From the NCBI GenBank assembly GCA_001768195.1, contig MENI01000042.1, positions 1-37,833 on the forward strand: a stretch of DNA of 37,833 nt, written 5' to 3'. Source of the DNA: Bacteroidetes bacterium GWA2_40_15. GTDB taxonomy: Bacteria > Bacteroidota > Bacteroidia > Bacteroidales > VadinHA17. Shown here in pieces: positions 1,522 to 36,058 of the stretch; position 1 is the stretch's first letter; every line of letters begins with the position of its first letter. The notes under the pieces were generated by a model. That model saw only the letters and a program-made list of their open reading frames with translations. It did no database searches and was not told the origin of the DNA. Both the position numbers and the translations under genes were made by a program.

Positions 1522-1535
1522 TTTCGGTTTCCTTT

Positions 1536-2939: not shown

Positions 2940-2983
2940 AGTATAAAGATTAATCCTTCCGAGTCATTCTGCATTTAGCATGA

Positions 2984-3109: not shown

Positions 3110-3115
3110 ACGTGT

Positions 3116-12414: not shown

Positions 12415-13421
12415 TCCGAACGGAGTTTGAAGAACATTATTTCCTTGTAATACGGCTTTGTTTTTGCTTCTATTTCCAGCATCTGATCAGCTGAAAGAGG
12501 CTTGAAATTTTCTGCAATCTTTATATTCTCCTCAAGCTGGGCAATATCATCCAGTCCGACTATTACTGTGCTTATCGGAAGCGACATTACATACTCCATT
12601 GCCTCTTTCATGGTAATTATTCCTCCATGTGCAAATATCCTGTCGCGGGCCGGGATCTTCATTCCGACAATACCCATATTCTTTGATACTGCTGTCGGAA
12701 GGAATTTCTCAATAAACGGATCATAATGTTTGTCGGCAGCATTAAGTGCCACCAGTACATTGTCAAATGGATACCTGTCGGCCATGGCCTTAAGGACATC
12801 CGGACCTTCATGACCCGTAAAACCTATAAACCTGATAACCTTCTGATCCCTCATTTTTTCCATAGCTTTAACAACTCCGCCTGCTGTAAACCATTTATCC
12901 AGTTCGGTTATTTCTGCTTTCCTTACATTATGCACCTGCCACAGATCGAGGTGATCGGTCTGCAGGTTCTTCAGACTCTTTTCGATTAGTCTCATTGAAC
13001 CATCATATGTGCGGTCATCTGTTTTGGACGCCAGAAAAACCTCCTTACGCCTGGTCTTCATAACCTGGCCTATATTTCTCTCGCTGGTACCTCTTGCTTC
13101 AGCCTTGGCAAGCGTTGCAGTGGCTCTTCCGTAACCTGCAGCAGTATCTATATAATTTATTCCCAGATCTATAGCCTTGTTGATGATCTGAACTGCAAGT
13201 TCTTCCTTTCCGGGTGTCTCAACAGTAGCCTGGCCTCCAAGACTGTAAATACCAACCATATGGCCAGTTTTGCCAAGTGGTCTGAGAGGCATTTTCCCCT
13301 TATTAAAGGTAGCTTCTGCACCATTAGCTGTGTTAATATAAGGATATAATCCAGCAACTGCTGATGCTGCAAGCAGTTTCTGCAGAAATTCGCGACGTGA
13401 ATTCAGGTTTAACTTTTCCAT
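12396..13421 (-). CDS. Tat-exported aldo/keto reductase
   Basis: A 341-residue protein with a twin-arginine signal (NSRREFLQK, then LLAASAVAGLYPY). The (beta/alpha)8 aldo/keto reductase domain shows the catalytic tetrad: D92 and Y97 (NYIDTAAGYG), K133 (FLASKTDD) and H164 (LWQVHN). Family enzymes reduce carbonyls with NADPH. Export of this family is unusual, since the cofactor must be folded in before Tat transport. It overlaps the downstream DUF1080 gene by 19 nt and is divergent from the isomerase gene at 13568. Together with the other Tat-type oxidoreductases here it fits periplasmic keto-sugar chemistry, but the substrate is not known. Confidence 0.9.
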   Translation of the reverse strand: MEKLNLNSRREFLQKLLAASAVAGLYPYINTANGAEATFNKGKMPLRPLGKTGHMVGIYSLGGQATVETPGKEELAVQIINKAIDLGINYIDTAAGYGRATATLAKAEARGTSERNIGQVMKTRRKEVFLASKTDDRTYDGSMRLIEKSLKNLQTDHLDLWQVHNVRKAEITELDKWFTAGGVVKAMEKMRDQKVIRFIGFTGHEGPDVLKAMADRYPFDNVLVALNAADKHYDPFIEKFLPTAVSKNMGIVGMKIPARDRIFAHGGIITMKEAMEYVMSLPISTVIVGLDDIAQLEENIKIAENFKPLSADQMLEIEAKTKPYYKEIMFFKLRSEWPAEW

Positions 13422-16349: not shown

Positions 16350-17705
16350 CTATTTCAAATACACTTCCAAAACAGCTATCTCCACCGGTGGTTTTTGCAT
16401 AGGAAGTTGAAGAGAAAGGGTCCCTGCGTCTTCGCCGCTTCCTGCACTGAATTTCACTTCTGAAGCATCGTGAAGGAACTGAACATATTTAATCTTATCA
16501 TTCATTCCTTTCAGATTCAACCTTCCCATGGGATATGCAAGTAAGTGAATATAAAGCCGGTTCGTAACAGGGTTATAAGTCAGAACCGTATTTGCAGGAG
16601 CTGTAAACTCAGCCGGAGCTTCAGTACATCCATAAACCGACCTGTTGTTTAACTTCATCCACTCCCCCATCGACTTAAGCCTGTCCTGTGCCCTCAGATC
16701 AAAAGTTCCACGAGCAGTAGGACCAACATTCAGAAGAAGATTTCCCCCTTTGCTTACTGATTCTATAAGAAGCTCGATAAGCTGTGCATTGCTCTTCCAT
16801 GTATGCTCATCGCGGTAGTAACCCCATGACCCTGAAAACGTCTGGCATGTCTCCCATGGTATCTTTTTGCCATTGTACTCAGGCCATTTCGCAACTTTCA
16901 CCTGTTCAGGTGAAATAAAATCCCACCCCCCTTCAACCTCTTTAAGATCAAGACGATCGTCAACTATAATACCCGGCTGAAGCGAGCGCGCCATTTTAAG
17001 CAGGCTCTCTGAGTCCCAGTCTGCATGTCCTTTACCATTCTTACCGGGGAAGGAGAAATCGAACCAGATTATACTGATCTCACCATAATTGGTCAGCAGT
17101 TCACGTACCTGGTTCTTCATATATTCACGGTATTTATTCATATCCCTGCCCTTGTTAAGACGTGCAAATGCTGTATCGGAATCCACTCTCTGTGGATGAT
17201 TCCTGTCAATAGTATAATCAGGGTGATGCCAGTCAATAAGTGAATAGTAGAAGCCAACCTTTAGCCCCTCAGCCCTGAACGCTTCAACATATTCTTTAAT
17301 AAGATCTTTCCCGAAAGGAGTGTTCGTTGCCTTGTAATCGGTGAATTTGGAATCAAACAGACAGAATCCCTCGTGATGTTTGGCTGTCAGTACAACATAT
17401 TTCATACCCGCAGTTTTTGCCTGTCTTGCCCATTCACGCGGATCGTAAAGATCGGGGTTGAACATCTCAAAGTACTTCTGATACTGATCGTTAGTGATCC
17501 GCTCATGCAGTTTCACCCATTCATGACGGGCCGGTAAAGCATACAGACCCCAGTGAATGAACATACCGAACCTTGCATCGGTCCACCATTTCATACGCTG
17601 GATCTTCTGCGCTTCAGTCTCTTTTGGCAGCTGGGCCTGAGAGTATTGTGAAATAATTAACAACAGGAGTGTTAATGTAATGATTGAGAGGTTTTTGAGT
17701 TTCAT
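16350..17705 (-). CDS. GH29 alpha-L-fucosidase, secreted
   Basis: A 451-residue protein with a signal peptide ending near A24 (QYSQAQ). GH29 signatures are DARFGMFIHWGLYALP, TAKHHEGFCLFDS with H110-H111, and the nucleophile D216 in SIIWFDFSFPG. A C-terminal beta-sandwich starts near 365. It differs from the GH29 at 14498 by a shorter C-terminal end and the insert ARLNKGRDMNKYREY. It is the last gene of the long minus-strand operon, 57 nt after the alcohol dehydrogenase gene, which indicates that the operon handles fucosylated material. Galactose-like or methylated fucosides cannot be excluded. Confidence 0.92.
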   Translation of the reverse strand: MKLKNLSIITLTLLLLIISQYSQAQLPKETEAQKIQRMKWWTDARFGMFIHWGLYALPARHEWVKLHERITNDQYQKYFEMFNPDLYDPREWARQAKTAGMKYVVLTAKHHEGFCLFDSKFTDYKATNTPFGKDLIKEYVEAFRAEGLKVGFYYSLIDWHHPDYTIDRNHPQRVDSDTAFARLNKGRDMNKYREYMKNQVRELLTNYGEISIIWFDFSFPGKNGKGHADWDSESLLKMARSLQPGIIVDDRLDLKEVEGGWDFISPEQVKVAKWPEYNGKKIPWETCQTFSGSWGYYRDEHTWKSNAQLIELLIESVSKGGNLLLNVGPTARGTFDLRAQDRLKSMGEWMKLNNRSVYGCTEAPAEFTAPANTVLTYNPVTNRLYIHLLAYPMGRLNLKGMNDKIKYVQFLHDASEVKFSAGSGEDAGTLSLQLPMQKPPVEIAVLEVYLK

Positions 17706-17762: not shown

Positions 17763-18935
17763 TCAAAAGTACCTTTTTTGAAGGATCTCCAGAAGTTCTT
17801 CATTTGAAAGCTTTACAGGATTATTTTTGCATTCGGTATTTTTAATAATCAATTCAAAATCACTTTCATCAGCACCTGCAGTTTTCAATCCAGGCAGTCT
17901 TATTTCTTCACTGAGCCGGTAGAGATACTCAATGAATCCGTCGATAAGATAATCATCACTGCCCTCCTTCTTATCGAGGAACAGCTTACCTAAAAACTTA
18001 TACTTTTCAAGCGCTGATATGTCCTGATTTTTACGCAAATTTCTCACATTTAAATCATTAGCAGCAGACATCAAAGTACCACATATCAGACCGTGCGGAA
18101 CATCATACCTCGCTCCGATTGATGAAGCAAATCCATGTACTGTGCCGAGTCCTGCATTAGCCAGGCATATCCCTGAAGTAAGAGCAGCAAATGACATTTC
18201 TGCTCTGGCTTCGATATTACTCCCCTCTTTGCAGACCCTCACAAGTGAACTCTTTATTGCTTTAAGTCCTTCAATGGCAAGCGCATCTGTATAGGGATTT
18301 GATTTAACTGAAAGGTATGACTCAGTAAGCTGTGTAAAGCAGTCCATTCCGCTTGCAGCTGTAATATCTTCAGGGCAGTTAAGCGTAAGTTCCGGATCGA
18401 TTATTGCAATTTCAGGCACAAGGTTATCATGCCTGAGAGAACGCTTGAATCCATCTGCCCCAATTTTTGAAATGACGGCATTTTTGGTTACTTCGCTTCC
18501 GGTTCCGGAAGTGGTAGGAACAGCAATAAAAGGAACTTTAGTTCCGGGATGTTCTTTTGTTCCTGCAAACTCGAGGTATTCTTTTACAGAATCAGGTTTG
18601 TAAAGCATTGCCGATATTGCTTTTCCTGCATCCAGGACACTCCCGCCCCCGATAGCTATTACCAGATCAACCTTTTCGCCACCGATCAGTTGAACAGCAT
18701 TATCAATCATTTCTGGAGAGGGTTCACCGGGGATTGAAATCAGTCGCCAGTCAGCAGATACTTTTTTCAGATCGCTGAAAAGTTTTTCTGCCTGATTTGA
18801 AATAATAAATGAACTTTTACCGGTAACAATTACGAGCTTTTTACCATAAAAACCTGTCAACCCTGGAAGTCCGGCGATGACACCGTTTTTAAACCTGATT
18901 GACGGTATCCGTGCAAACTGAAACGGTTTTACCAT
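17763..18935 (-). CDS. Iron-containing alcohol dehydrogenase
   Basis: A 390-residue cytoplasmic protein. The nucleotide domain carries IAIGGGSVLDAGKAIS (GGGS at 97-100) and PTTSGTGSEVT (140-150). Metal ligands are D198 (GMDCFTQL), H267 (VHGF) and H281 (PHGL). The second histidine of FucO-type enzymes is replaced by Q202, as in several iron dehydrogenases that bind metal with three residues or accept another metal. Candidate roles are lactaldehyde reductase in fucose breakdown, or oxidation/reduction of a small aldehyde from oxidative demethylation. It overlaps the ABM gene by 7 nt. The substrate is not fixed by sequence. Confidence 0.9.
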   Translation of the reverse strand: MVKPFQFARIPSIRFKNGVIAGLPGLTGFYGKKLVIVTGKSSFIISNQAEKLFSDLKKVSADWRLISIPGEPSPEMIDNAVQLIGGEKVDLVIAIGGGSVLDAGKAISAMLYKPDSVKEYLEFAGTKEHPGTKVPFIAVPTTSGTGSEVTKNAVISKIGADGFKRSLRHDNLVPEIAIIDPELTLNCPEDITAASGMDCFTQLTESYLSVKSNPYTDALAIEGLKAIKSSLVRVCKEGSNIEARAEMSFAALTSGICLANAGLGTVHGFASSIGARYDVPHGLICGTLMSAANDLNVRNLRKNQDISALEKYKFLGKLFLDKKEGSDDYLIDGFIEYLYRLSEEIRLPGLKTAGADESDFELIIKNTECKNNPVKLSNEELLEILQKRYF

Positions 18936-19237
18936 TGTGAGCTGTCTTCCGGTTCAATGATCTTATATTTAATCCCCTTCCTGGGTTCAGCCATATAGTC
19001 AGCAACGGTATCACGCCATACAGCATAATGTGGAGTAAGCTTATGTTCTGCTGCTGACTGCTCGGATTCATAAGCCTCATAGAGCATGAACTGACAGGGA
19101 TCATCAGCCAGCTGAAGAAAATCAAACCTCAGGTTTCCCGGTTCTTTTACCGATTCTCTGTGATTATCAATGGTTGCCATGATAAACCGGTCAATAAGAT
19201 CTTTCTTAACGCTAATATGTACGCAGGTTACTATCAT
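18929..19237 (-). CDS. LsrG-like antibiotic-biosynthesis-monooxygenase-fold protein
   Basis: A 102-residue dimeric alpha-beta barrel protein. It closely follows LsrG at NHRESVKEPGNLRFDFLQ, FMLYEAYESEQSAAEHK, TPHYAVW and PRKG. Enteric LsrG isomerises the phosphorylated AI-2 signal. No other lsr genes occur here, so it probably carries out a different small-molecule step, perhaps on a reactive keto or hydroxy compound from the pathway. The 7-nt overlap with the alcohol dehydrogenase implies translational coupling. It lies 24 nt after the MFS gene. Confidence 0.82.
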   Translation of the reverse strand: MIVTCVHISVKKDLIDRFIMATIDNHRESVKEPGNLRFDFLQLADDPCQFMLYEAYESEQSAAEHKLTPHYAVWRDTVADYMAEPRKGIKYKIIEPEDSSQW

Positions 19238-19261: not shown

Positions 19262-20515
19262 TTAAGTTATTGGTTTTATTTCAGGTATAAATATTTTTAT
19301 GATCAGCCAGTTCGCCATGTAAACGGTGGAGGCAATTGCAAAAATAAGGAAATAACTTCCGGTAGTATCGAGAATGTAACCCACAAATGAGGCAGAAAGC
19401 GCACCTCCTGCAGCTGCTGCGAACCCTGCAAGACCGGTCATTGAGCCTACTGCTTTTTTTGGGTAGATATCTGAGATCAGAGTGAACATATTTGCCGCCC
19501 ATCCGCAATGCCCGGCGCAACCAATAGCAATCAGGGCAACAGTCAGCCAAAGGCTCTTAACCTGGGGAACGATCATAATCGGCAAAACTACCAGGGCGCT
19601 TATCAGAATTGCTGCCTTCCTTGCATAGTCAACCGACCTTCCCTTATTGATCAGGAAGGATGAGATCCATCCTCCTCCGATACCTCCGAAACTGGCGACA
19701 CCATAAATAACAATCAGTGGCAAGATGGCCTCTTTGATATTAATGCCATGCATTTTGTGCAGAAAATCAGGTGTCCAGAACAGAAAGAACCACCACACCC
19801 AGTCTGAAATAAAACGGGTGGAACAGAGTGCATAGGTTTGCCTGTACCTGAAGAGATCTTTCCATTTCACGTTGTCAGTTTTATCATTCACTATGGTATC
19901 ATGAAGGATATAGTCGTGCTCTTCCGCTGACAGACGGGGATGCTTTGAAGGCGGGAAATAGTAAATAAGCCAGCAGATGATCCATATAAAACCAAGTGCC
20001 CCGGTTATGATGAATGCCCACTGCCATCCCATTGTTACTGTAATTCCGGTTACAATAACAGGAGCCGCTATTGCCCCGATTGTAGATCCTGAATTAAACC
20101 ACCCTGTGGCATGAGCCCGCTCATTTTGCGGAAACCACTCTGCTACCGTTTTTATTGCGGCAGGGAAATTGGCTGATTCTCCCAAACCAAGAAAAAACCT
20201 GGCGGTGGCAAAACCGATTGCAGAACGGGCAGCAGCATGAAGCATCCCTGCAATGCTCCATACTGCAATTGCAATAGCATAACCTAACCGCGTTCCAAAC
20301 CTGTCAAGTATAACTCCTGTGACCAGCAAACCTGCTGCATAAGCCACCTGGAAAGCTGTAACTATTAATCCATAATCAAACTCACTCCAGCCCAGATCAG
20401 TTTCAATATATGGCTTCAGAATGCCAATAACCTGCCTGTCAATATAGTTTATTGTTGTTGCAAAAAACAACAATCCAAGGATCGCGTAACGGATTTTACC
20501 TTTTTTCTTCCTCAT
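19262..20515 (-). CDS. MFS transporter, anion:cation symporter (ExuT-like) type
   Basis: A 417-residue protein with twelve hydrophobic segments. Family marks are TTINYIDRQVIG in helix 1, DRFGTRLG in loop 2-3, RFFLGLGESANFPA in helix 4 and FPPSKHPRLSAEE in the central loop. ACS-family members import hexuronates, galactonate, glucarate or similar sugar acids with protons or sodium. As the only transporter in the operon it probably imports the product released by the secreted glycosidases. The start sits 17 nt after the small ORF. Confidence 0.9.
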   Translation of the reverse strand: MRKKKGKIRYAILGLLFFATTINYIDRQVIGILKPYIETDLGWSEFDYGLIVTAFQVAYAAGLLVTGVILDRFGTRLGYAIAIAVWSIAGMLHAAARSAIGFATARFFLGLGESANFPAAIKTVAEWFPQNERAHATGWFNSGSTIGAIAAPVIVTGITVTMGWQWAFIITGALGFIWIICWLIYYFPPSKHPRLSAEEHDYILHDTIVNDKTDNVKWKDLFRYRQTYALCSTRFISDWVWWFFLFWTPDFLHKMHGINIKEAILPLIVIYGVASFGGIGGGWISSFLINKGRSVDYARKAAILISALVVLPIMIVPQVKSLWLTVALIAIGCAGHCGWAANMFTLISDIYPKKAVGSMTGLAGFAAAAGGALSASFVGYILDTTGSYFLIFAIASTVYMANWLIIKIFIPEIKPIT

Positions 20516-20807: not shown

Positions 20808-23075
20808 TCAGAACTCATCAAAGGATATAAAGTCATCACCAACACCCAGGTTTTTAAGCATATCCATTCCTGCTCTGATCATTGCCGGAGGGCCACACAA
20901 GTAATATTCAATTTCCTGAGGGTTTTCATGTTTTGACAGATATTCGGCCAGTAATACCTCATGAATGAATCCAACATGACCATTCCAGGTGACCTGCTCA
21001 CGGATTTCAGATAAAGCCGGATGGAAAGAAAAATTTCTATGTTCCTGTTCAAGCTTAACGAAATAATCATCATAAAAAATGTCTTCAACCGAACGCGCTC
21101 CATACCAGAAACTAACCTTTCGACCTGTCCTTTCTGTTTCGAACAAATATGACAAATGTGAGCGTAATGGAGCCATTCCTGCCCCACCACCCAAATAAAC
21201 CATTTCGCGGTCCGACTTTTTGATCAGAAAATCTCCAAAGGGTCCGGTTAACTGTACTTCATCCCCTGGCCTCAGATTAAATACATACGAAGAACCAACT
21301 CCTGCACTAACTTTACTTTCTGCTGGTGGCAAAGCGATTCTTAAATTGAATTTCAGGGTTGAATCTATTGCCGGATTTGTTGCCATTGAATAATTTCGTT
21401 TTGAATAAATAGTTGTTTCAGCCCAAATATCCAATAAACCCATTTCGTTCCATACTTTATAATATGGTTCCTCAATCTGAAATTCGCTGAAGAAGGTTTT
21501 ATGAGGCGGGATTGATATTTTAATATACTGTCCGGGTTGAAACGGAAAAGGTACTGCATTTAAAGGTTCAAGTGTCAATTCTTTTATGAACGTAGCTACA
21601 TTTTTGTTACTGACGACCTTAAAAGTAGTTTGGTGTTCCTGTGCATTAAGTTTATCACTGTGAACTCCTGATAAGTCCAATACAATTTTATCATCCACAT
21701 TTTCAACAGGATATGTTTTTACACCTAATGATACTGGCATTCTTGCAGGTGATCCGTCCTTAATATTGAAACGACCATTGTGTTTGGCACATTCAATTAC
21801 TTTTCCAATTACAACTCCTTCAGCCAAATGAGCATTGCCATGTGTACAAAACCCATCGGTTGCATATAAATCATTATCTTCTGTACGGTAAACCGCATAG
21901 GTTTGTTGCTGAAAATCGAATCTTACAACTTCACCCCCGGGTATATCGCTGCTCTGACATACTTCTATTTTCCCCCCGTGTAATGAATCCGGTTTTCCAA
22001 AAAAGATATTCCTGTCTGTGTTTAAATATTTTCCCTCTTGTTCAGGAATTCTCCGTTCCACAAAATATGAAGGGTCTTTGGCCTGTTTCAGAATTGCCGG
22101 GATTATTTCCCTGAAAGCATCGGTAATACTTTTATATGGTTCCGGGCAATCGTCTTTGATCAGTTTATGCAACTTAGGTAAAGCATGGTAAGGCACTAAC
22201 GGATACATGTGGTGTTCAACATGATAGTTCATGTTCCAGTATAAGTACCGGTGAATGCGATTCATATAAACTGTACGGCAATTCAGGCGATGATCCAGTA
22301 CATTCTCCTGAAGAGCTGCATGTTGAGTCAATCCGTAAATTGGTAATAACCATCCGCCAAATAACGTAGGAAAACCTACAAACATGAGTGGCAGAATACT
22401 TCTGTAGAGAACTGCCATGGCAATAACCAACAGATATATTCCAATGTAAATCCGGGCTTTAAAAATAACTTTGGAATATTCATATACCGGCAGATAAGTG
22501 GCAACTTCAGGATCAATTCTACCGGTAGCATGTAAAAAAATACGTCTTATTTCCGGAATAGCTCCGCGGATTCCGACAAATGCAAGTAATATCATTCTGA
22601 TCTTAGGCGGCCGTGGTACGGCTATTTCAGGATCACGGCCACGGATTAAAGTGTCGCTGTGATGCCTGGCATGGCTCCAACGCCAGACTGTTGATTGTCT
22701 GAATACCATAAACGATGCAATTTCATAAAGGACATTGTTCATCCAATCGGTTTTAAAAGCAGTACCGTGGCTCGACTCGTGCCAACGGGAATCGGATGTT
22801 GAAGCATATAAAACACTGTAAATAAAATATGGGAATATAACAAACCATGAGCCCCACCATTGGAAAACCAGATAACCTGAACTGATAATCAGACTAAACC
22901 AGATTATGGTATCCCGGATAGCAGGACCATCTTTTCTGACAAGTAATTCGCGCATCTCTTCCCGTGATACCGGCGAGTGATACCATTTGGCGTCAGCAAG
23001 CCCCATTTTAATAGCTATCGGAGTTTCTGTGCCTATTAAACTATAATCCCTGACTGATGTTTTTTCGTTTACCAT
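20808..23075 (-). CDS. Self-contained membrane di-iron oxygenase: desaturase-fold domain + Rieske ferredoxin + NqrF-like reductase
   Basis: A 755-residue fusion. Residues about 50-330 are a fatty-acid-desaturase-fold domain with paired membrane segments (about 55-90, 206-245) and the histidine boxes H99-x3-H103, H135-x2-H138-H139 and H285-x2-H288-H289. Residues about 370-465 are a Rieske domain with C410-T-H412 and C429-A-K-H432. Residues about 480-755 match the FAD and NADH domains of NqrF: PGQYIKIS, R560-N-Y562-S563, GGGAGMAPLRS (629-639) and CGPPAM (727-732). The order matches the separate MocD oxygenase, MocE Rieske ferredoxin and MocF reductase of rhizopine O-demethylation. I infer an NADH-driven, O2-dependent membrane O-demethylase or hydroxylase. 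A lipid desaturase is the alternative. It lies 29 nt after the isomerase gene. Confidence 0.88.
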   Translation of the reverse strand: MVNEKTSVRDYSLIGTETPIAIKMGLADAKWYHSPVSREEMRELLVRKDGPAIRDTIIWFSLIISSGYLVFQWWGSWFVIFPYFIYSVLYASTSDSRWHESSHGTAFKTDWMNNVLYEIASFMVFRQSTVWRWSHARHHSDTLIRGRDPEIAVPRPPKIRMILLAFVGIRGAIPEIRRIFLHATGRIDPEVATYLPVYEYSKVIFKARIYIGIYLLVIAMAVLYRSILPLMFVGFPTLFGGWLLPIYGLTQHAALQENVLDHRLNCRTVYMNRIHRYLYWNMNYHVEHHMYPLVPYHALPKLHKLIKDDCPEPYKSITDAFREIIPAILKQAKDPSYFVERRIPEQEGKYLNTDRNIFFGKPDSLHGGKIEVCQSSDIPGGEVVRFDFQQQTYAVYRTEDNDLYATDGFCTHGNAHLAEGVVIGKVIECAKHNGRFNIKDGSPARMPVSLGVKTYPVENVDDKIVLDLSGVHSDKLNAQEHQTTFKVVSNKNVATFIKELTLEPLNAVPFPFQPGQYIKISIPPHKTFFSEFQIEEPYYKVWNEMGLLDIWAETTIYSKRNYSMATNPAIDSTLKFNLRIALPPAESKVSAGVGSSYVFNLRPGDEVQLTGPFGDFLIKKSDREMVYLGGGAGMAPLRSHLSYLFETERTGRKVSFWYGARSVEDIFYDDYFVKLEQEHRNFSFHPALSEIREQVTWNGHVGFIHEVLLAEYLSKHENPQEIEYYLCGPPAMIRAGMDMLKNLGVGDDFISFDEF

Positions 23076-23104: not shown

Positions 23105-23923
23105 TTATTCAGAATTAAGTATCGATTTTAGCATTTTCATCATGTAAACGTTAATTTCCCATTGATTGGCAATAGGCTTCTGTGTAAATGGCATATTTAT
23201 CATGTATGGGAAAGGCCCAAATTCGGAAGTAATTGTGAAAACCGGCAGACCTTCTTTTCTGCGTACTTCAACAATTCGCTTCCACCATCCGGTGTGGATA
23301 TCCACAGCTTCCTTCCAATCAGGATCACGCGGATCCGTAATCTGAGGTCCTTCAGGAAAACCGACCCTGGCATGGATATGATCGGCACGGCTGATTGCCT
23401 GATCAATGGCTGCCTGCTGATCAGGTAAATATGATTCAGCTACATTGCACCAGTGCGAAATATCGAACCCGATACGCAAATCAGGTAAGCGGGTCAGATA
23501 GTCAGAAGTAATATGGGCCGCAAAACTAAACTTCCCCCTATGAGTCTCATGAATAATCTTTACACCATACTTATGTGAAACTTCTGAGGCAATCTGTATC
23601 AACTCCACATTTTGTTCAAAAGAAAAGAAATCTTTCCCTGTTTGTGAGTTTATGAATAATGGGGCAACTGTCGCAAGGTTAACCAGTCTGGAACGATATT
23701 CTTTTTTGTGCTCCTCAAAATCGGAGGTAGCTGTTTCCCAATGTTGAGCAATGAATAATAAACCGTGTCTCCTGATTGAATCAAATATTGATTCCTTCTC
23801 ACTTTGATTCAGGGGCAGACTCATCTCAATCCCATCATAACCAGCGGCTGTAACACTGGTCACAAACTCATTAAAATCATTATGACCCGATCCCCAGTTG
23901 GGACAAAAGAATTTAATTTCCAT
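23105..23923 (-). CDS. Sugar phosphate isomerase/epimerase-like TIM-barrel protein, cytoplasmic
   Basis: A 272-residue protein without a signal peptide. AP-endonuclease-2-like barrel with metal-site candidates E33 (GIEMSLP), E126 with H125 (IIHETHRG), D154 and H157 (FDISHW), H182/H184 (DHIHARVG) and E234 (TSEFGP). The family includes xylose-isomerase-like, hydroxypyruvate, and 2-keto-myo-inositol dehydratase enzymes. It is 36 nt after the alpha-galactosidase gene and 29 nt before the fusion oxygenase gene, so it probably converts the product of one or the other. Its cytoplasmic location contrasts with the exported relative at 13568. Confidence 0.88.
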   Translation of the reverse strand: MEIKFFCPNWGSGHNDFNEFVTSVTAAGYDGIEMSLPLNQSEKESIFDSIRRHGLLFIAQHWETATSDFEEHKKEYRSRLVNLATVAPLFINSQTGKDFFSFEQNVELIQIASEVSHKYGVKIIHETHRGKFSFAAHITSDYLTRLPDLRIGFDISHWCNVAESYLPDQQAAIDQAISRADHIHARVGFPEGPQITDPRDPDWKEAVDIHTGWWKRIVEVRRKEGLPVFTITSEFGPFPYMINMPFTQKPIANQWEINVYMMKMLKSILNSE

Positions 23924-23959: not shown

Positions 23960-26086
23960 CTATTTTCTGATTATTTCGAATACTGCACCATCATATTCTT
24001 TATCAAGTGTCACTCTGAATCCTTTCTGTAATAGTTCCTTGCCGGTTGAATTCATAATCAGATCTCCTGATGGGGCTTTCCTTACCTCATAAACAAAAGA
24101 AGGGTTCAGGAACTTTACTGTCACTGTCCGCTGACTCTCAGGAGAACCCTGCCTGAAAATACCAACAATGCCACCCGATTTTGTATCGGAATTAATACGC
24201 TGATAGCCATCCCAGTTTCCTTCTGCCGGTTCCCCATACCCCTTCAGGTCCTGCCTGAATAACATATAATCGTGTTTCTCCTGTGCTTTTCTCATCCAGT
24301 CGGCCCAGCTCTTCATCCTGATCCTCTCATCTTTACTCAGTTTACGGGGATCGCCGAGGACAATCGGCAGGGAACCGTTAAGTGACATTAATGATAATTC
24401 AAATTCCGGATCTTCAAAATGCTGGTTTCCTATAACCATAGCTGTTGCAGGGATGACCGGAGATCTCCACCACGACATATTCCTTACCCTGAGTGATCCG
24501 TCAGGAACTTTTTCAGAAAAGTTTGACAGCCAATTGCCTTCGGCATGCTTGCACATGTCGAGGTCGATAAGCTGCAACGCGCCCATGGTTTCGAAGGTGC
24601 AGTCAATAAAGAGGTTTGGCGCCTCCCGGTGAAGGTCGTCAAATAGTCTCCATGTACGCTGATACATCTCCAGCATCGACTCATTCCTGTCCTTATGCAT
24701 TGGATGATCCTTTGCATGACAACCTGATCTGGTCTTATCGGTTGTATAAGCTCCTGTTGCTACAGCAAAATCACCTTTTATGTACTCAAGCCCATGCTCT
24801 TTCACCAGGCTGAGAATCACTCCTTTAATATGATCGTACCAGCCTGTTGTCATGCACATCGAATAGCTTTCCCATCCATACATCTTATCAAAGTCGGCAT
24901 GAAGGCTTATAGGAGTGCCGTCGGCTTTTCGTACAAGCCACTCAGGATGCTCCATATATACTTTGCTCTTCGACTCGGCTGCGCCAAGACTGATCCACAA
25001 TCCCGGTTTCATTCCCTTGCTTTTAATATAGTCGAATACAGGTTTGAGTCCGTTTGGAAATTTTTCCTTATTAATTCCCCAATCACCATAGTTGTCCTGC
25101 CATCCGTCATCTATTATAAACTCTTCTATACCACATTCGGCTGCTGCATCGGCCAGTTCATAAATCAGCTTTTCATTTATATTATGAAGGAACGGTTCCC
25201 ATGTATTATAAATAAATACAGGTTTTTTGGGGATCAGGCTCAGGCGGATTCCCATATGAAGACGGACATAATCGCTGACAGTTGTATTTAATACTTCAAA
25301 CGGATCGCTGCTGTTTTCATAAATTGCAGTAAAAACCCAGGTACTCTCCCATTGTTCTGCCGGTGCTATCCATTTACGGAATCCATAATTCTGGTCGGGA
25401 TGTGTTAAACCTGTCGTAAATTGCTGAGGTTTGAGGAAAGCGGTGGATCGTTTCATAACTCCGGGCGCTTCATTGCCGAATGCAATTCCCCTTCTGTTAC
25501 GGAATTGGTGCGCCACTACCACAGGATCATAACACTCTCCCACATAAGGTCCAAGGGCTTTCTGCCTTGCATATTCATGCATTATCCAGGTATGTGTACC
25601 ATCATCACCGCTGAACTTTATGCTTTCAATATCGAGGGCTTCAATCCTGATTTCATTTTTTCCTGTGTTCTGAATGGCAATTTTTTTCCTTACAAGCGGA
25701 AGACCGGGATAAAGCAGATATGTTAAACTTATCCTCAGACTTTTTTCCGGATGATCAAGAATCACTGTTGCGCCGGCGCCTCCCAGCTCACCTTTGATTA
25801 TTCTGACATCTACTACTTTCCATTTGTCGGTGCCGGTATATGCCTTCCCATCAACCTCGAATGAGAATTCCAGAGAACCATCTGCGAGGTATTCTGACTT
25901 ACCTCCCTTCAGCATCATACTCTGTGAGACTATACCTCCCTTATCAGCATTGAGGTTGATTACACGTTTTATTACATCGTTATCAAGTATAAGCTTTTCT
26001 TCGGCCTGATTGGCAAACTTTTGCCCGGCAAGGGGTACAAACAGAGAGAAGCATAATACGGCTGAGAAAATAAACCGGGTTCTCAT
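23960..26086 (-). CDS. GH36-type alpha-galactosidase, secreted
   Basis: A 708-residue protein with a signal peptide (MRTRFIFSAVLCFSLFVPLAG). An N-terminal beta-supersandwich (about 30-290) is followed by a TIM barrel (about 290-610) with FIYNTWEPF, EEFIIDDGWQDNYGDW, GLWISLGAAES and the nucleophile region YIKGDF (D439), then a C-terminal sandwich. GH36 enzymes hydrolyse alpha-galactosides with retention. The acid/base is not assigned from sequence. Length matches the family. It is the first gene of the eight-gene minus-strand operon. The weak TATATTTA (reverse of 26111-26119) is a possible -7 element. Confidence 0.85.
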   Translation of the reverse strand: MRTRFIFSAVLCFSLFVPLAGQKFANQAEEKLILDNDVIKRVINLNADKGGIVSQSMMLKGGKSEYLADGSLEFSFEVDGKAYTGTDKWKVVDVRIIKGELGGAGATVILDHPEKSLRISLTYLLYPGLPLVRKKIAIQNTGKNEIRIEALDIESIKFSGDDGTHTWIMHEYARQKALGPYVGECYDPVVVAHQFRNRRGIAFGNEAPGVMKRSTAFLKPQQFTTGLTHPDQNYGFRKWIAPAEQWESTWVFTAIYENSSDPFEVLNTTVSDYVRLHMGIRLSLIPKKPVFIYNTWEPFLHNINEKLIYELADAAAECGIEEFIIDDGWQDNYGDWGINKEKFPNGLKPVFDYIKSKGMKPGLWISLGAAESKSKVYMEHPEWLVRKADGTPISLHADFDKMYGWESYSMCMTTGWYDHIKGVILSLVKEHGLEYIKGDFAVATGAYTTDKTRSGCHAKDHPMHKDRNESMLEMYQRTWRLFDDLHREAPNLFIDCTFETMGALQLIDLDMCKHAEGNWLSNFSEKVPDGSLRVRNMSWWRSPVIPATAMVIGNQHFEDPEFELSLMSLNGSLPIVLGDPRKLSKDERIRMKSWADWMRKAQEKHDYMLFRQDLKGYGEPAEGNWDGYQRINSDTKSGGIVGIFRQGSPESQRTVTVKFLNPSFVYEVRKAPSGDLIMNSTGKELLQKGFRVTLDKEYDGAVFEIIRK

Positions 26087-26977: not shown

Positions 26978-28174
26978 TTACTTCACCACTCCGATCTCCT
27001 TTTTCTCCCTGAAGAAGAATATAAAGCATATCAGCACTGCTACAGCAATGTATGCAGGTATAAACCATATGTTGCGCCATTGGTAGACCTGTCCTGTGGA
27101 ATAATATGTTGTTACAAAACCGGAGAACCATGTGCCTATAAACATGCCGAGACCGTACGTAACAAAAGTGAAAAGTCCCTGTGCTGCACTTTTAATTCTT
27201 TCATTCGATTTCTTTTCCGTATACATATATCCTGTAACAAAAAAGAAGTCGTAACAAACTCCATGCAGTATTATCCCGGCATAAAGCATCCAGAGGTTAG
27301 TTCCCATATTGCCGTATGCAAAGGCCAGATACCTGAGTATCCATGCAGTCATCCCGATAAGCAGCATTTTTTTGACACCGATCCTGTTAAACAGGAATGG
27401 GATAGCCAGTATGAACAGAGCCTCTGATATCTGCCCCATAACCATCTTACCGGCTGTGTTCTCCATTCCCGACTGGTTAAGGTAGAGGTTGGCAAATCCG
27501 AAATAGAATGAGAGCGGGATGCATACAAAAATGGCAGCAATAAAAAAGATCAGATACGGTTTGTCTTTGAATAGAACCAGTGCATCGATCCCCATTACTG
27601 ATTTTGCCGATGATGCAGCTTTTTCCTGAGCAGGTGTGTCGGGTAGCATAAAACTAAATATGCCCAGTCCGAACGACACAATAGCAGCCATATAAAAAGT
27701 AAGAGGAGTTTGTTCAATACCGAGTATGGAGATCATAAAGCCTGAGATCACCCATCCGACAGTCCCGAACACCCTGATAGGCGGGAATTGTTTCCCGATA
27801 TCGGTCATCTGGCGGAATGCCACGCTATTTGACAGGGCGATGGTGGGCATGTATGCAAGCGAATAAAGCAGAATGATCCAGTAGAATGCCCCGTTGGTCG
27901 TGATCCTTGAAGCAAGGAAAAGCAGTATCCCGCCAATAATATGAAGCAAGCCCATTACTTTCTGGGCCGCAAAAAACCTGTCTGCAACCATCCCGACAAA
28001 GAATGGGGATATCATTGTAGCTATCGCAAGCGCACTGTATGCAGCGCCGATCTGAATGCCGGTCGAGCCAAGATATTTCGACATAAATGTTCCCATTGTG
28101 ACATACCATGAACCCCATATATAGTACTGAAGGAACATCATGGAGCTAAGGATGATGCTGGTCTTTGGTTTCAT
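26978..28174 (-). CDS. MFS symporter of the nucleoside:H+ (NupG/XapB) type
   Basis: A 398-residue membrane protein with about twelve helices. Family features are MMFLQYYIWGSWYVTMGTFM at the N-terminus, ATMISPFFVGMVADRFF, PPIRVFGTVGWVISG, and LHGVCYDFFFVTGYMYTEKK near 310. Many Bacteroidota members sit beside sugar-processing genes and are thought to carry sugars or nucleosides. It follows the NapH-like gene by 59 nt and is the third gene of the FAD-oxidoreductase operon. Substrate unknown. Confidence 0.88.
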   Translation of the reverse strand: MKPKTSIILSSMMFLQYYIWGSWYVTMGTFMSKYLGSTGIQIGAAYSALAIATMISPFFVGMVADRFFAAQKVMGLLHIIGGILLFLASRITTNGAFYWIILLYSLAYMPTIALSNSVAFRQMTDIGKQFPPIRVFGTVGWVISGFMISILGIEQTPLTFYMAAIVSFGLGIFSFMLPDTPAQEKAASSAKSVMGIDALVLFKDKPYLIFFIAAIFVCIPLSFYFGFANLYLNQSGMENTAGKMVMGQISEALFILAIPFLFNRIGVKKMLLIGMTAWILRYLAFAYGNMGTNLWMLYAGIILHGVCYDFFFVTGYMYTEKKSNERIKSAAQGLFTFVTYGLGMFIGTWFSGFVTTYYSTGQVYQWRNIWFIPAYIAVAVLICFIFFFREKKEIGVVK

Positions 28175-28233
28175 AATGCTGGTGTTAAGAAGTAAAAATT
28201 GCGTTCGGGTAATATATCATTCAGGTCTCATAG

Positions 28234-29421
28234 TTAGCTTAATATTTTCAAATCTGCAACAGGGGGTGTGATTAAAATACAATCCTGTGGGCAAACTACC
28301 GCGCATGCCCCGCAGCCAACACATCTCTTAAAGTTTATAACCGGCACTGTATTTAAAATATTCCCGGAAGCAACAAAATCAATTGCTTCGAATTTGCATG
28401 ATTCCTTACATTTTATGCACTCTTTATTGTTTAAGAGCAGACAGTTTTTAAGTTCAATCTCTGCTTTTCCGATAAACAATTCAGCTTTTGCCTCAACGCT
28501 GAAGAGAGATATAGCACCGGTAGGGCACACAGTGCTGCAGAGATTACATGATTCAAGACAGTAGCCGTCAACGAATATCAGTTGCGGTGTCATCCAGGCG
28601 AGTGGATAAGCAGTATCAGTAACAGGTTTAATAATGTTTGTAGGACATGTCCTGGAACAACTGCCGCACCTGCAGCAAAGGAGGTTAAACAAATCCGGAC
28701 CGGCCGAAGCAGGCGGCCTTATAATGGTCTCTCCTTCGGATCTGAGAATTCGTGGTACCATAAAACCAGCCAGCAATCCTGCTCCGGCCATCACAAAATA
28801 GCGCCTGCCGGAGTCAGGTACAGACCTGCCCGGTTCATCCCTGACTGTTAACTTCCGCACCCCGCTTCTTACATCATCAACTGCCAGCTGAAGTCCCCCG
28901 AGCGGACATATCTTTTTACACCAGATCCCCGGCAGAAAGAGATGCATCAACAGAAGACCCGGAAAGAAATCATAAAACAGGATCTTAACGGGAGTAAATC
29001 CGCCTGAAAATATGGTAAAAAAGCCATTGAATATTGCAAGGGGATCAAAAATCACAAAGAGTGGTATTCCGACAAGAGAAGCAACCAATGATGTAATTGC
29101 CAGCCACTTACCAAAATCTGGCACTTGTCTGTATGAGTATGTCTTTCTGCTGAGACCGGAGACTTTATCACAACTCCAGCCAACAGGGCACAGATTATTA
29201 CAAAACCATCGTTTCCTGAATAAAACAAATAACAGAATAATGAGGCCAAGGCTGTTAAGAAAAACCAATGATTTAAGCGCGAATACCGAATTTAGCATAA
29301 TAAAAGGGCTGAGCCAGAGATATATTCCAGTCCACCCTTTCAATGAAAGGGGAAGAGCCAGAATCACCGCAACCATAAAAGATAGTGTCCGCAGATTTAA
29401 GATTCTGACAATATTTTTCAT
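28234..29421 (-). CDS. NapH-like membrane iron-sulfur protein with ferredoxin domains
   Basis: A 395-residue protein. An N-terminal part has four or so membrane helices and two cytoplasm-facing CxxxCP pairs (C74-C78, C168-C172), as in NapH/NosR-type quinol proteins. A second hydrophobic stretch (GRRYFVMAGAGLLAGFMVP, about 205-223) resembles an internal signal. The C-terminal part carries at least four cysteine clusters: C252-C255-C259, C292-C295-C299, C335-C338-C342 and C367-C370-C373-C377. It probably passes electrons between the quinone pool and the FAD oxidoreductase whose gene overlaps it by 4 nt. The reading of directions is inference. Confidence 0.85.
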   Translation of the reverse strand: MKNIVRILNLRTLSFMVAVILALPLSLKGWTGIYLWLSPFIMLNSVFALKSLVFLNSLGLIILLFVLFRKRWFCNNLCPVGWSCDKVSGLSRKTYSYRQVPDFGKWLAITSLVASLVGIPLFVIFDPLAIFNGFFTIFSGGFTPVKILFYDFFPGLLLMHLFLPGIWCKKICPLGGLQLAVDDVRSGVRKLTVRDEPGRSVPDSGRRYFVMAGAGLLAGFMVPRILRSEGETIIRPPASAGPDLFNLLCCRCGSCSRTCPTNIIKPVTDTAYPLAWMTPQLIFVDGYCLESCNLCSTVCPTGAISLFSVEAKAELFIGKAEIELKNCLLLNNKECIKCKESCKFEAIDFVASGNILNTVPVINFKRCVGCGACAVVCPQDCILITPPVADLKILS

Positions 29422-30764
29422 CCAAGAAATGCTCCCTGCTGAATAAGTACCTTCTTAAGTTCTTTTATATCAATATCTTTCACACTGCTGTTATTCTTAA
29501 CAGCCAGTCCCGCAGCAGTTCCGGCTCCATGTCCGGTAACAAGACAGGTACCGATAATTCTCCCGTCTTCAACAAGCTCCCTTTCAAAACAGAAACAACG
29601 TCCGGCTACAAGAAGGTTTTCTGTAAGCTTAGGAAGAAGTGACCGGTAAGGGATCTGCCAGAAAGGGCGCTTTGATGATGGTATCTTTTTCCCTTTGTAA
29701 AGTACCGGTGTCCAGGAGCCGCTTAATCCTATCACATCATCGAATGATCTGTAGGTCATCGAATCTTCAAGGGTAAGCCTGTATTCCCCGTCTAAAATGC
29801 GTGACATCCTGACTCCTATCTGGGAAGCAGTATCGAGAAGGAACACCTCTTCATGTCCCGGGGTCTGCCTGATCTTTTGAACATTATTCCAGATCTCCAT
29901 CCGGTAATCGGATTGAAGCTGCGACAGGTTTTCTATATCAAGTGCATCCTGGTTCTCCCTGCCCCACATGTTAACCCAGTTCACTCCCGGTATGGGTGTC
30001 GGGCCGCCTGTATTCATTTTAACATATCCGGGTTTATCAGTTTTAATACGATCGATGTTTCCAAGCCTATGAACAAGGCCGATAGCATACTGCATAACAT
30101 CGTAATTCTCTCCGGCCATGTGAAAGATATCTCCATCACCTGTACAATCAATAACTACTTTTGTAAGAATGGCCATTCTGCCGGATTTGCTTTCGATATA
30201 AACTCCTTTGATCACATTGCCATCCATTATAACATTCGCACCCCAGGTGTGGTAAAGCATTTTAACGCCTGACTCGCGTATCATCTCCTCCAGCACGTAT
30301 TTGGCCGCCTCCGGATCCACAACCGGGCTTTCCTCATGAATAGACATGCCAAGATCAACAAGTCGTTTCGACATCTCACCTCCGATACCAAAAATAACCT
30401 GTTTTCGCCGCTTCTGCTTATCTGCCCCATGTGTTGAAAGAAGAGGAAGTACCAATCCTCCGGTCCAGAGTCCGCCAAGGTGATTATATCTCTCCACAAG
30501 GTAAGTTTCAGCTCCTGTGCGGCTTGCTGCTATTGCCGCTGCTGCTCCGGCAGGGCCTCCCCCTATAATCAGAACATCCGTTTCTGCCAGTATGGGGATC
30601 AATCGCTCAGGTTCTCTTATGGTTCTTCCGTGTGATTCAATCACCGGAATAATGGTTCCTGATTTTTCTGCAGAAGATGGTTCAATCCTCCGCTTGCATC
30701 CCATACCAAGGGTCAAACCACCTCCGGTTATAAGGACTTTTGTAAAGAAATCTCTGCGTTTCAT
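29418..30764 (-). CDS. Exported FAD-dependent oxidoreductase
   Basis: A 448-residue protein. A Tat-like signal (MKRRDFFTKVLITGGGLTLG) ends with a possible lipobox C23. The FAD-binding motif GGGPAG lies at 68-73 with E91 as the ribose-binding acid, and the C-terminal NLLVAGRCFCFERELVEDGRI closes the flavin site. It belongs to the FAD_oxidored (PF12831-like) family, whose members act on sugars or cyclitols in several Bacteroidota. Its last 4 nt overlap the start of the NapH-like gene, so the two are probably one electron-transfer unit: oxidation of a periplasmic substrate linked to quinone reduction. Substrate unknown. The 195 bp upstream (30765-30959) shows nothing recognisable. Confidence 0.85.
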   Translation of the reverse strand: MKRRDFFTKVLITGGGLTLGMGCKRRIEPSSAEKSGTIIPVIESHGRTIREPERLIPILAETDVLIIGGGPAGAAAAIAASRTGAETYLVERYNHLGGLWTGGLVLPLLSTHGADKQKRRKQVIFGIGGEMSKRLVDLGMSIHEESPVVDPEAAKYVLEEMIRESGVKMLYHTWGANVIMDGNVIKGVYIESKSGRMAILTKVVIDCTGDGDIFHMAGENYDVMQYAIGLVHRLGNIDRIKTDKPGYVKMNTGGPTPIPGVNWVNMWGRENQDALDIENLSQLQSDYRMEIWNNVQKIRQTPGHEEVFLLDTASQIGVRMSRILDGEYRLTLEDSMTYRSFDDVIGLSGSWTPVLYKGKKIPSSKRPFWQIPYRSLLPKLTENLLVAGRCFCFERELVEDGRIIGTCLVTGHGAGTAAGLAVKNNSSVKDIDIKELKKVLIQQGAFLG

Positions 30765-30959: not shown

Positions 30960-31469
30960 TTATTTTGCGTTTTCCTTCAACTCAAGGAATCTTTTTTTCA
31001 TTGATTCAACATTCCGGACGGAGCTTCTGTCATTTATTGCATTTGAAACTTCAAAAGGGTCCTTTACCAGGTCAAAAAACTCTTCAAAATCATAATGAGG
31101 CCATAGTATGTATTTTTCTGAATGAGTGACCAGAGCCTCCGAAGAAGGGATTCTCTCTTCATTTGTAACATAAGGATGTTCATAAAAGAAATCCTTACGC
31201 CAGTCCACTGGTTTTTCTTCCAGATACAGATCTGAGAAATCCACCCCCTGCATTCTCTGTGGTACAGTAAGACCGGTTGAAGCAAGGATAGAAGGGGCAA
31301 TATCAATATTAAGAATAAACTCATCATTTATGATATTCCTCCTGTTCTCAGAAAGACGCGGATCATGCACAATAAGAGGGACCTTAATTGATTTCTGGTA
31401 AGGGTACCATTTATCAGCCAGTCCATGCTCTCCATGAAAATAGCCATTATCGCTCATGAAAATTATCAA
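30960..31469 (-). pseudogene. C-terminal fragment of a type I sulfatase
   Basis: The 169 residues start at a TTG codon and begin IIFMSDNGYFHGEHGLADKW, the late metal-site region of S1 sulfatases, and continue through PLIVHDPRL and a C-terminal region ending LKDPFEVSNAI. The N-terminal half with the CxPSR formylglycine cysteine is absent, so it cannot be active alone. Immediately upstream on the minus strand it abuts the end of the propeller fragments (YYSYF, then a TAA), so a deletion junction lies near 31475-31490. Confidence 0.75.
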
Positions 31470-31483
31470 TATTTTATAATTTT

Positions 31484-33281
31484 TTAGTAGTCATTTGGGA
31501 TACCCTCAAAATTTTGCAACGGCTTCACAAAATAATCAGTTGTCCTTATCGTGCTTAATCCTCCTTTATGTCCGATCCATATATTATAATGATCATCAGA
31601 GATTAAGGAGTAACAATAATCTGATAACAAACCCTGCTTTGTTGTAAGGTAAAGTATTGAATCGAAGTCAATAATAAAAACACCATTGCCTCTTGATGCT
31701 ACCCAGATCCGTGAAGCGTCATCCTCACACACAGAACCCAGTGTCAGAATTCCGGATCCTGTACTAAGCGGGATCCTGGTGATCTTCCCATCCTGCATAT
31801 ATGATATAATACTGCTGTTTGTACTTATCCATAACCTCTCCTCCTTATCCAGAAACAGGCTATTTACGGAGTTATGAGGCAATCCGCCCTGGTTAATGGA
31901 ATACCAGTTAAGGGTATTTGTCACAGTATTAATATTACATAATCCTTTTTTTGTACCTGCCCACACCCGATCATCTTCCTGTTATCGTAGTTACAGAGTT
32001 TTCAAGAGTTCCGCTACCTATGGCGTATCTTGATAATTTCTCTTTACCCGGATTAAGTACATACAGTCCGTTTTTATAAGTTCCAACCCAAACCGATTCT
32101 TCTCCTGATTTATAAATTGCCGTAACTGTATCTTTGAGCAATCCTGAGTCACTGGTGAAAAAACTGACTACCTTACCTGTCAGACGGTCTGTTTTTAAAA
32201 GACTGTTCCCCGTACCTATCCACAAATACTGATTGTCTGAACATATAGCAAAAACAGTGTTCCCATACCTGTTCCTGTCAAAAGTCTGATTAGAAAACAG
32301 TCTTGGATTAATCTGAGTCAGACCCTCTCCATAGTTTCCGCTCCAGATATTCCCCTCAAGGTCTTCATATACAGTTTTAACATTGTCTGTAACAAAACCT
32401 GATGATTTATTGAAAAGAACTATTGTTTTTTCACCGTCAGGGCCGGGGATAAGTTTTATCAGACCATTTTTGAATGATCCTATCCACAGATTTGCCTGAT
32501 TGTCCTCACAGAAGCTCTGTACATCAGTAAATTTAAAAACATCATCTGTCTCTATCTTCTTAACAGTGAACAGAATGCCGTCCTTTTTGAGTGTATATAT
32601 TCCTTCTTTTTCAGTGACAATATAGAATCCCGATCCGTTCCTCACTTTCTTAATTACCGGGACTTTAGATACCGGAATATTATCAATTATCTGAAGCACA
32701 TCTGTTCCCGGTGTTTTACCGGGCTTTCCAGACAAAAGACCCGATCCGCTTCCAATAAGTAATTCATTATCATTTATAAAAGCGAAGGAATGTATCGATT
32801 GATGATCGGGGAATATATTACTTTCAAAACGGATCTCTCCCCTTTCAAGTCTGAATAGTCCATCAGCAAGTGTACTTACCTATATCCGGCCATCAGGACT
32901 TTTAGCAAAATGAGTTATGGAACTTAGTTGTCTCCCGTTGTAGTTTACCGGTTTGAATTTTTTCCCGTCAAACCAGGTTATTCGTCCATTCCTGTGACCA
33001 AACCACAGACAGCTACCATCATCAATAGCTGACGTAATGAAATTATCTGCCACCGAGTCAGGGATTGTAAATGTTTTAAAAGTGAAAACATTGTACTTTG
33101 ATAATCCGTCAGCTGTACCAATCCACAAATAACCCTGTGACTCTTGTATTGTAGAATATACATAAGGAGCTGCCAATCCCTCCGATGAACTGAATGAACG
33201 AAAATTATAATCCTGCGGATCCGCATTAATTACAGGGAGTGATATGGTTAACAATAAAAGTATTATTCCCTTAAAATTTCT
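31484..33281 (-). pseudogene. Two-component-system-type propeller sensor, broken by stop, frameshift and truncation
   Basis: Residues after a second signal-like stretch (FKGIILLLLTISLPVINA) carry propeller blades: GYLWIGTADGLSKYN, CLWFGHRNG, LWIGTGNSLLKTD, VWVGTYKNGLYVLNP and IWVASRGNGVFIID. The expected GRIWVSTLADG is broken by TAG at 32880-32882 (Trp to stop). A one-base shift occurs near 31975, at TITG-EDDRVWAGTKKG. The frame ends at 31484 with no Y_Y_Y, kinase or AraC part. Such sensors usually control glycan loci. The start is fused to another gene's frame at about 33281. Confidence 0.7.
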
Positions 33282-36047: not shown

Positions 36048-36058
36048 TCTTTTTTCTT

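Follow-up and report, generated by a model that had tools for sequence, protein, structure and literature searches.

The window analysed here is the whole stretch of 37,833 nucleotides of contig MENI01000042.1 from Bacteroidetes bacterium GWA2_40_15. Its minus strand carries a gene (the fusion) whose 755-residue product joins a MocD-like membrane di-iron oxygenase domain, a MocE-like Rieske domain and an NqrF-type reductase domain. Translation of positions 20808 to 23075 gave a single uninterrupted minus-strand frame of 755 codons, and the plus strand of this region contained many stop codons. The gene and its domains were assigned as follows, with the evidence in brackets:

20808..23075, minus strand: fused oxygenase gene, 755 aa (Pfam and NCBIfam; 80 full-length relatives)
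22026..23075, minus strand: MocD-like membrane di-iron oxygenase domain including the N-terminal region, aa 1–350 (Pfam FA_desaturase; invariant ligands; tree with MocD)
21675..21968, minus strand: Rieske [2Fe-2S] domain, MocE-like, aa 370–467 (Pfam, NCBIfam, invariant ligands)
20811..21650, minus strand: NqrF-type FAD/NADH reductase domain, aa 476–755 (NCBIfam, PDB sequence match, Foldseek, tree)

Pfam analysis placed FA_desaturase at residues 76–317 (111.8 bits, cut-off 29.7), Rieske at residues 370–456 (64.1 bits, cut-off 20.3) and NAD_binding_1 at residues 628–735 (61.2 bits, cut-off 22). In NCBIfam, NqrF TIGR01941 covered residues 476–755 with 312.5 bits, and its cut-off of 295 was passed by all three fusion proteins scanned (the window protein and two others). 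The nearest family for residues 370–467 was MocE TIGR02377 at 102.6 bits, below the cut-off of 136.15; the three fusion proteins scored 102.6, 114.1 and 109.8 bits, and a separate MocE scored 178.1. The GntB family, named arginine hydroxylase in NCBIfam, matched the window protein weakly (29 bits). The oxygenase domain contained the histidine boxes H99-ESS-H103, H135-AR-H138-H139 and H285-VE-H288-H289, and the Rieske ligand motifs were C410-T-H412 and C429-AK-H432. In 77 of 77 aligned fusion proteins no variation was seen at the eight histidines of the boxes, at the two cysteines and two histidines of the Rieske motifs, or at the extra histidines H252 and H262. The first-pass annotation, made from the letters of the window alone, had described three modules in one frame at 20808..23075 with an NqrF-type reductase half, and both descriptions were upheld by these domains and motifs. 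Its coordinates were correct, and the strand, which it had not stated, is minus.

The nearest solved structures by sequence were NqrF FAD domains and dioxygenase Rieske ferredoxins, and the oxygenase domain had no relative among the PDB sequences, its one hit being a chance antibody match (E 1.8). The AlphaFold model of the whole fusion, built from 61 sequences, had a mean predicted local distance difference test (pLDDT) of 82.0 and a predicted template modelling score (pTM) of 0.60. The oxygenase part was helical, with long helices including 49–72, 77–98 and 197–223, and the Rieske part was beta; because of the pTM of 0.60, the relative placing of the domains was not interpreted. Foldseek aligned the C-terminal part with NqrF 2r6h_B (target TM-score 0.92, 281 columns, 43% identity). 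The 50 rows listed by Foldseek were all reductases or reductase-domain proteins, so the oxygenase fold was not confirmed by this search. An AlphaFold model of the oxygenase domain alone, made without an alignment, was poor (pLDDT 49.8) and was left unused.

Relatives were sought in one genome per species, where at least 588 stretches encoded some relative of the query (these may include plain NqrF). The best 80 were kept, and the fusion count of 80 is a lower bound. All 80 matched the query over its whole length with 51–68% identity. Going by their record titles, they belong to Verrucomicrobiota (42), Bacteroidota (12), Acidobacteriota (12), Chloroflexota (4), Planctomycetota (2), Kiritimatiellota (2), Pseudomonadota (1, a metagenome-assembled genome) and Lentisphaerota (1), with 4 unplaced. 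The genome survey suggested at first pass found the three-domain fusion in at least 80 loci of 8 named phyla. Six records, those of Labilibacter sediminis, Wenyingzhuangia gilva, Sunxiuqinia indica, two Winogradskyella and Mucilaginibacter sp. L294, were from named strains, presumably cultured ones. Since 80 full-length relatives exist, six of them from named strains, both chance and an assembly chimera were excluded.

The alignment set consisted of 77 proteins out of 84 candidates (the 80 loci plus the window, L004, L119 and L120); the other seven were omitted because the simple gene caller missed or cut them. Direct inspection showed that L072, L079 and L108 were whole and open, and that L112 was a whole fusion with an extra partial copy of the reductase domain directly after it (12661–13281). 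One in-frame stop was present in each of L097 and L109, and L095 was frameshifted. Hence 77 of the 80 loci were open in one frame and 3 were interrupted.

Among 147 genomes of the organism's own kin (its own included), a full-length match was present in 2, its own genome and that of the same-genus G019. The remaining listed matches spanned the reductase part only, and the 29 examined had the NqrF ferredoxin motif. In 395 Bacteroidota genomes the oxygenase domain was matched in 34 and strongly in 3; the three strong matches sat in fusion-length frames (756, 779 and 779 residues), and the next best had an E value of 3.5e-15. In the class of genome G537, 2 of 244 genomes matched at E ≤1e-40, identical to the two found earlier. 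The fused form was not found on plasmids, as 0 of 848 matching records spanned at least 80% of the whole query. The oxygenase domain alone was found in 288 plasmid records, chiefly of Rhizobium and Sinorhizobium; 281 of these contained at least 80% of the oxygenase-domain query, every one with less than 60% identity. The window protein was the sole PF00487 protein found in its own genome. Because the distribution is patchy, it fits an accessory catabolic gene.

The phylogenetic tree of the oxygenase domain was constructed from 65 rows (37 fusions, 10 separate MocD, one GntB-like row and 17 other desaturase-like proteins). Of the 17 outgroup proteins, 16 came from Bacteroidota and had no annotation, and the other was annotated as an acyl-CoA desaturase; no characterised lipid desaturase stood beside it, and several outgroup rows carried long-branch warnings. 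The fusions, the separate MocD proteins and the GntB-like row formed one group (97/97) apart from these 17 proteins. Within it the fusion oxygenase domains also formed one group (89/99; 92% of bootstrap trees), and the fusion apparently arose once. The oxygenase domain was about 50% identical over about 340 aa to the separate MocD of Rhizobium indicum (L116). Kinship to MocD, claimed at first pass, is borne out by this identity and the 97/97 group, and in the tree proposed there as a check the domain did not fall with the 17 desaturase-like proteins used.

In the ten separate MocD loci a Rieske gene adjoined MocD (10/10), and the fusion Rieske domain was 42–51% identical to these Rieske genes. 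Four annotated MocD loci were read, and in each MocD was followed by a Rieske gene and an FAD-dependent oxidoreductase. None of the ten loci had an NqrF-type reductase match, and the two separate MocF-position reductases scanned (L113 and L116) were of the HcaD/AndAa type. Because the fusion reductase is of the NqrF type, the label of fused MocF is wrong and the reductase class was exchanged: the fusion is MocD and MocE joined to another type of reductase. The D and E parts of the MocD-MocE-MocF-like fusion named in the first-pass annotation were retained, and the F part was not.

For the reductase, a tree was built from 24 fusion domains, 29 NqrF and a single further reductase. NqrF formed one group (100/100) that excluded the fusion reductases, and the single further reductase, on a long branch, was placed on the fusion side. 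An N-terminal plant-type 2Fe-2S cluster motif was present in 29 of 29 NqrF examined, in place of which the fusion has the Rieske domain; the own genome also encodes a separate NqrF with a plant-type 2Fe-2S domain at C32. As fusion proteins pass the NqrF cut-off, they may be named NqrF by automatic pipelines.

The R. indicum locus (L116) had the order pyridoxal phosphate-dependent (MocR-like) regulator, MocD, MocE, reductase, PanB-like protein and PurU, and was surrounded by IolE, Gfo/Idh/MocA oxidoreductases, and sugar ABC genes with a sugar-binding protein. The PanB-like and PurU neighbours were read as handling one-carbon units. By its gene content and by the rhizopine genes listed in PMC10107442 (mocDEF, mocR, mocBA and mocC), the locus looks like a rhizopine-type moc cluster. 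Cyanobacteria also have MocD-type genes according to PMC2593844.

The most frequent neighbour of the fusion was a TIM-barrel, sugar-isomerase-like gene, whose cluster was the commonest one (37/78 loci). In 34 of 77 loci it lay next to the fusion, on the same strand and no more than 300 bases away; elsewhere it accounted for 3 of 320 genes at up to 3 kb, 1 of 274 at 3–6 kb and 0 of 308 beyond 6 kb. Residues invariant across 21 TIM-barrel sequences included E126, D154, H184 and E234, which we take to be the metal site of a sugar isomerase. The TIM-barrel profile matched AsbF, IolE and 3-keto-glucoside epimerase weakly. It found a gene at 2 of 10 separate mocDEF loci, after the set in Acidiphilium (L113) and near the set in Caballeronia (L150). 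In Pseudomonas syringae, a xylose isomerase gene is reported beside mocDEF (PMC5132102).

In the window, the fusion is the third gene of a minus-strand run of seven (melibiase-like glycosidase, TIM barrel, fusion, MFS transporter, ABM/LsrG-like protein, iron alcohol dehydrogenase and alpha-L-fucosidase), in which the successive gaps are 36, 29, 292, 24, -7 and 57 bases. The six other genes were:

23960..26086, minus strand: melibiase-like glycosidase (GH36/GH27 type), first of the run (Pfam)
23105..23923, minus strand: TIM-barrel sugar-isomerase-like protein, 29 bp upstream of the fusion (Pfam AP_endonuc_2 25.7 bits, below the cut-off of 31.1)
19262..20515, minus strand: MFS transporter (nearest to the D-galactonate transporter subfamily, 278.5 bits, below the cut-off of 395)
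18929..19237, minus strand: ABM-domain protein, LsrG-like (Pfam, NCBIfam)
17763..18935, minus strand: iron-containing alcohol dehydrogenase (lactaldehyde reductase among the best NCBIfam matches, below cut-off)
16350..17705, minus strand: alpha-L-fucosidase, GH29 (Pfam)

Past the run, a second fucosidase and another TIM-barrel gene lie on the opposite strand. The sugar-catabolic setting recognised at first pass is confirmed by these glycosidases and sugar genes. Among the close relatives, L033 had GH92, GH16, GH38, URO-D and aldo-keto reductase genes nearby, together with a gene 66% identical to the window MFS transporter; L035 had GH2, RhaT and aldehyde dehydrogenase, and L162 had GH38 and a PfkB kinase.

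Neighbour genes of 78 loci were clustered by single linkage, and each family name rests on one representative. Besides the TIM barrel, the clusters included AraC (16 loci), URO-D (15), aldose epimerase (10), aldo-keto reductase (9), MFS sugar transporter (8), RhaT (6), alpha-L-rhamnosidase (6), MtgC corrinoid protein (4) and rhamnose mutarotase (4). For a Pfam tally, 148 open reading frames each were scanned from the 256 near and the 257 far ones; they came from a simple picker and some are spurious. AP_endonuc_2 and AraC led the near families with 11 each, and neither was among the 25 far families listed (lowest count shown 2). URO-D was counted 6 times near and 2 times far; further near counts were Gfo/Idh (5), aldo-keto reductase (4), aldose epimerase (4), RhaT (3) and rhamnose mutarotase (3). 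Among the 25 listed of 167 near-neighbour families there was none for lipids or carotenoids, which answers the neighbour check of the first-pass annotation within those 25.

In Labilibacter sediminis (L034, 1016–15556), the fusion was preceded upstream by three genes, for a P450, a putidaredoxin-like 2Fe-2S ferredoxin and a ferredoxin reductase, the last of them about 0.7 kb from the fusion. Still farther upstream came URO-D, CobW, a B12-activation domain and RACo; on the downstream side, MtaB and MtgC occupied the opposite strand. The best PDB match of this P450 was 6g5o (636.9 bits, E 1e-190; next chain 158.5 bits, E 2e-45), presumably the 6-O-methyl-galactose demethylase of Zobellia. The demethylation of 6-O-methyl-galactose by P450 is described, and the structure of the enzyme cited, in PMC10033563. 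Locus L041 had a P450 48% identical to that of L034, with MtgC and URO-D, and L060 had a distant P450 (28%). MtgC corrinoid and URO-D family genes occurred in the same loci in L034, L041, L042 and L049.

Elsewhere in the window organism's genome, two MtgC-like corrinoid genes were located (L160, 7637–10639; L161, 3265–6986), one with a methyltetrahydrofolate:corrinoid methyltransferase-like gene and MTHFR, the other with a B12-activation gene.

Taken from kinship and neighbourhood, the fusion is probably a self-sufficient NADH- and O2-dependent di-iron oxygenase, most likely a demethylase of sugar or cyclitol methyl ethers. We infer metal binding, the electron route (from the domain families), O-demethylation and the substrate. 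The protein would be a one-polypeptide, membrane-embedded monooxygenase with an electron route running from NADH over the FAD of the C-terminal NqrF-type domain and the Rieske [2Fe-2S] cluster to the histidine-ligated di-iron site, where the N-terminal MocD-like domain would activate O2. The O-methyl ether of a sugar or cyclitol would be hydroxylated at the methyl carbon, and the product would collapse to formaldehyde and a free hydroxyl (R-O-CH3 + O2 + NADH + H+ -> R-OH + HCHO + NAD+ + H2O). In the window, the substrate would probably be a monosaccharide freed by the operon glycosidases and imported by the MFS transporter; an O-methyl 6-deoxyhexose of the fucose or rhamnose type is a plausible guess. 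The TIM barrel and the dehydrogenase would then act on the demethylated sugar. O-Demethylation is favoured because of the MocD kinship, the relative in the moc cluster of R. indicum, the TIM-barrel partner, and the sugar and P450/corrinoid neighbours.

Several results weigh against this assignment. The window operon contains no clear formaldehyde or one-carbon enzyme, and HxlA, of the ribulose monophosphate formaldehyde pathway, gave a match of only 20 bits in the own genome (cut-off 200). P450 genes were near just 3 of 78 loci, one of them distant, and MtgC near 4 of 78. Near and far counts were almost equal for Sugar_tr (3 near, 3 far), MFS (3 and 4) and rhamnosidase (3 and 2). In L163, a scan of three genes following the fusion gave a histidine kinase, adenylosuccinate synthetase and SecD, none linked to sugars, and in L036 the fusion was followed by an ABC ATPase. 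The rhizopine route itself is a genetic model. Finally, a distant MocD-like oxygenase with a Rieske gene (L152, 6968–8273), labelled GntB-like, lies beside a 5-guanidino-2-oxopentanoate decarboxylase and inside the wider clade; therefore, MocD kinship alone does not mean demethylation.

Because that GntB-like row lies inside the clade, the MocD-like family is suggested to perform other hydroxylations too. In the main rival explanation no methyl group is removed, and the self-sufficient MocD-like oxygenase would hydroxylate or desaturate some small polar metabolite, be it a sugar, a sugar acid, a cyclitol or an amino acid. The arginine hydroxylase name of GntB, despite its weak match, points in this direction, and the many general sugar-catabolic neighbours suit any sugar oxidation. 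However, the closest separate relatives include one within a rhizopine-type moc cluster, and in L034 and L041 the fusion is near P450 and corrinoid methyl-transfer genes, so this explanation is considered unlikely, though worth keeping in view.

Near some loci lie members of MtgC and MtaB, families whose names refer to glycine betaine and methanol, which would agree with an oxidative N-demethylase or a methoxy-aromatic demethylase in place of a sugar-ether demethylase; the glycosidases, RhaT, rhamnose mutarotase and aldose epimerase among the neighbours indicate sugars instead, and we regard such an enzyme as improbable. A lipid or carotenoid desaturase or hydroxylase with fused electron carriers is more improbable still. 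The Pfam fold is that of FA_desaturase and no second PF00487 protein was found in the own genome, but the domain groups with MocD and not with the 17 desaturase-like proteins (one acyl-CoA desaturase, 16 unannotated), the window neighbours are glycosidases and sugar genes, and a full-length copy in 2 of 147 kin genomes, own included, is unlike a housekeeping lipid enzyme. Given the tree and the patchy distribution, the lipid desaturase reading was not favoured. Membership of the Na+-pumping NADH:quinone reductase, as an automatic NqrF name would have it, agrees with the score of the C-terminal domain over the NqrF cut-off, here and in both other fusion proteins, but was ruled out by domain content (no N-terminal plant-type 2Fe-2S domain, the motif of all 29 NqrF examined), by the NqrF group that excludes the fusion reductases and by the separate NqrF of the own genome, and has next to no chance of being right.

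Compared with known systems, the fusion resembles MocD-MocE-MocF in its MocD identity, its Rieske partner, its sugar or cyclitol setting and the TIM-barrel partner, which is also beside two of the separate sets. It differs from these separate proteins in being one polypeptide with an NqrF-type reductase (HcaD/AndAa-type in the two scanned), in occurring mostly in other phyla and in having sugar-type instead of rhizopine-type neighbours; it is MocD-like by test and, by its reductase, not a MocDEF system. The FAD/NADH domain shares with NqrF the fold and the 43% identity to 2r6h_B, whereas the fusion lacks the plant-type 2Fe-2S domain and stands outside the NqrF tree group. The P450 6-O-methyl-D-galactose demethylase of marine Flavobacteriia performs the same overall reaction as that proposed for the fusion, and a 6g5o-like P450 lies upstream of it in L034; that demethylase is, however, a heme enzyme with another fold and separate redox partners (PMC10033563). 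The closest fused parallel in the print sources is AlkB joined to ferredoxin and ferredoxin reductase (ferr_ferrR_AlkB; PMC8918992), likewise a membrane di-iron oxygenase with its electron chain in a single polypeptide and likewise misnamed by automatic annotation. Unlike the fusion, with its C-terminal Rieske and NqrF-type reductase domains, it is an alkane hydroxylase with N-terminal partners and a ferredoxin. The same review, citing a 2001 paper, says that no ferredoxin-fused desaturases were found (PMC8918992). In open-licence PubMed Central, no title or abstract describing the fusion or its function was found.

Other genes of the window, all on the minus strand, were noted as well. A second sugar set at 127–4165 consists of an enolase-like protein, a Gfo/Idh/MocA oxidoreductase and a 3-keto-disaccharide hydrolase. 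Upstream of the operon, a nucleoside-type symporter, a NapH/NapF-like 4Fe-4S protein and an FAD oxidoreductase lie in a row (26978–30764). The region 30960–34133 contains short open reading frames with a C-terminal sulfatase piece and several Reg_prop pieces, and resembles broken genes, and 34140–37663 holds a row of a PKD/PD40 protein, PorP/SprF and a CHU_C type IX secretion signal protein.

The same fused protein occurs in many environmental bacteria. The broader proposal, that an overlooked and widespread family of one-polypeptide, NADH-driven membrane di-iron oxygenases cleaves sugar methyl ethers in Verrucomicrobiota, Acidobacteriota, Bacteroidota and others, is about as likely as not. 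Such a family would have a single origin, in which MocD and MocE were joined to an NqrF-like reductase, and a dedicated TIM-barrel isomerase partner; in some species it would stand beside P450 and corrinoid systems, and it would serve as a general means of access to the methylated glycans of plants and algae. Automatic naming would also be corrected, as the three fusion proteins scanned all scored over the NqrF cut-off.

In plants, algae and microbes, many glycans carry methyl ethers that protect them, and the P450 route found in print covers 6-O-methyl-galactose in marine Flavobacteriia (PMC10033563). If the proposed function is true, the fusion would be a second self-contained O2-dependent route in other glycan degraders, explaining their use of methylated sugars, and a source of formaldehyde in these bacteria. 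It would also be a single-gene oxygenase without need for added redox partners, and L. sediminis would offer a test bed for oxic and anoxic demethylation within one strain.

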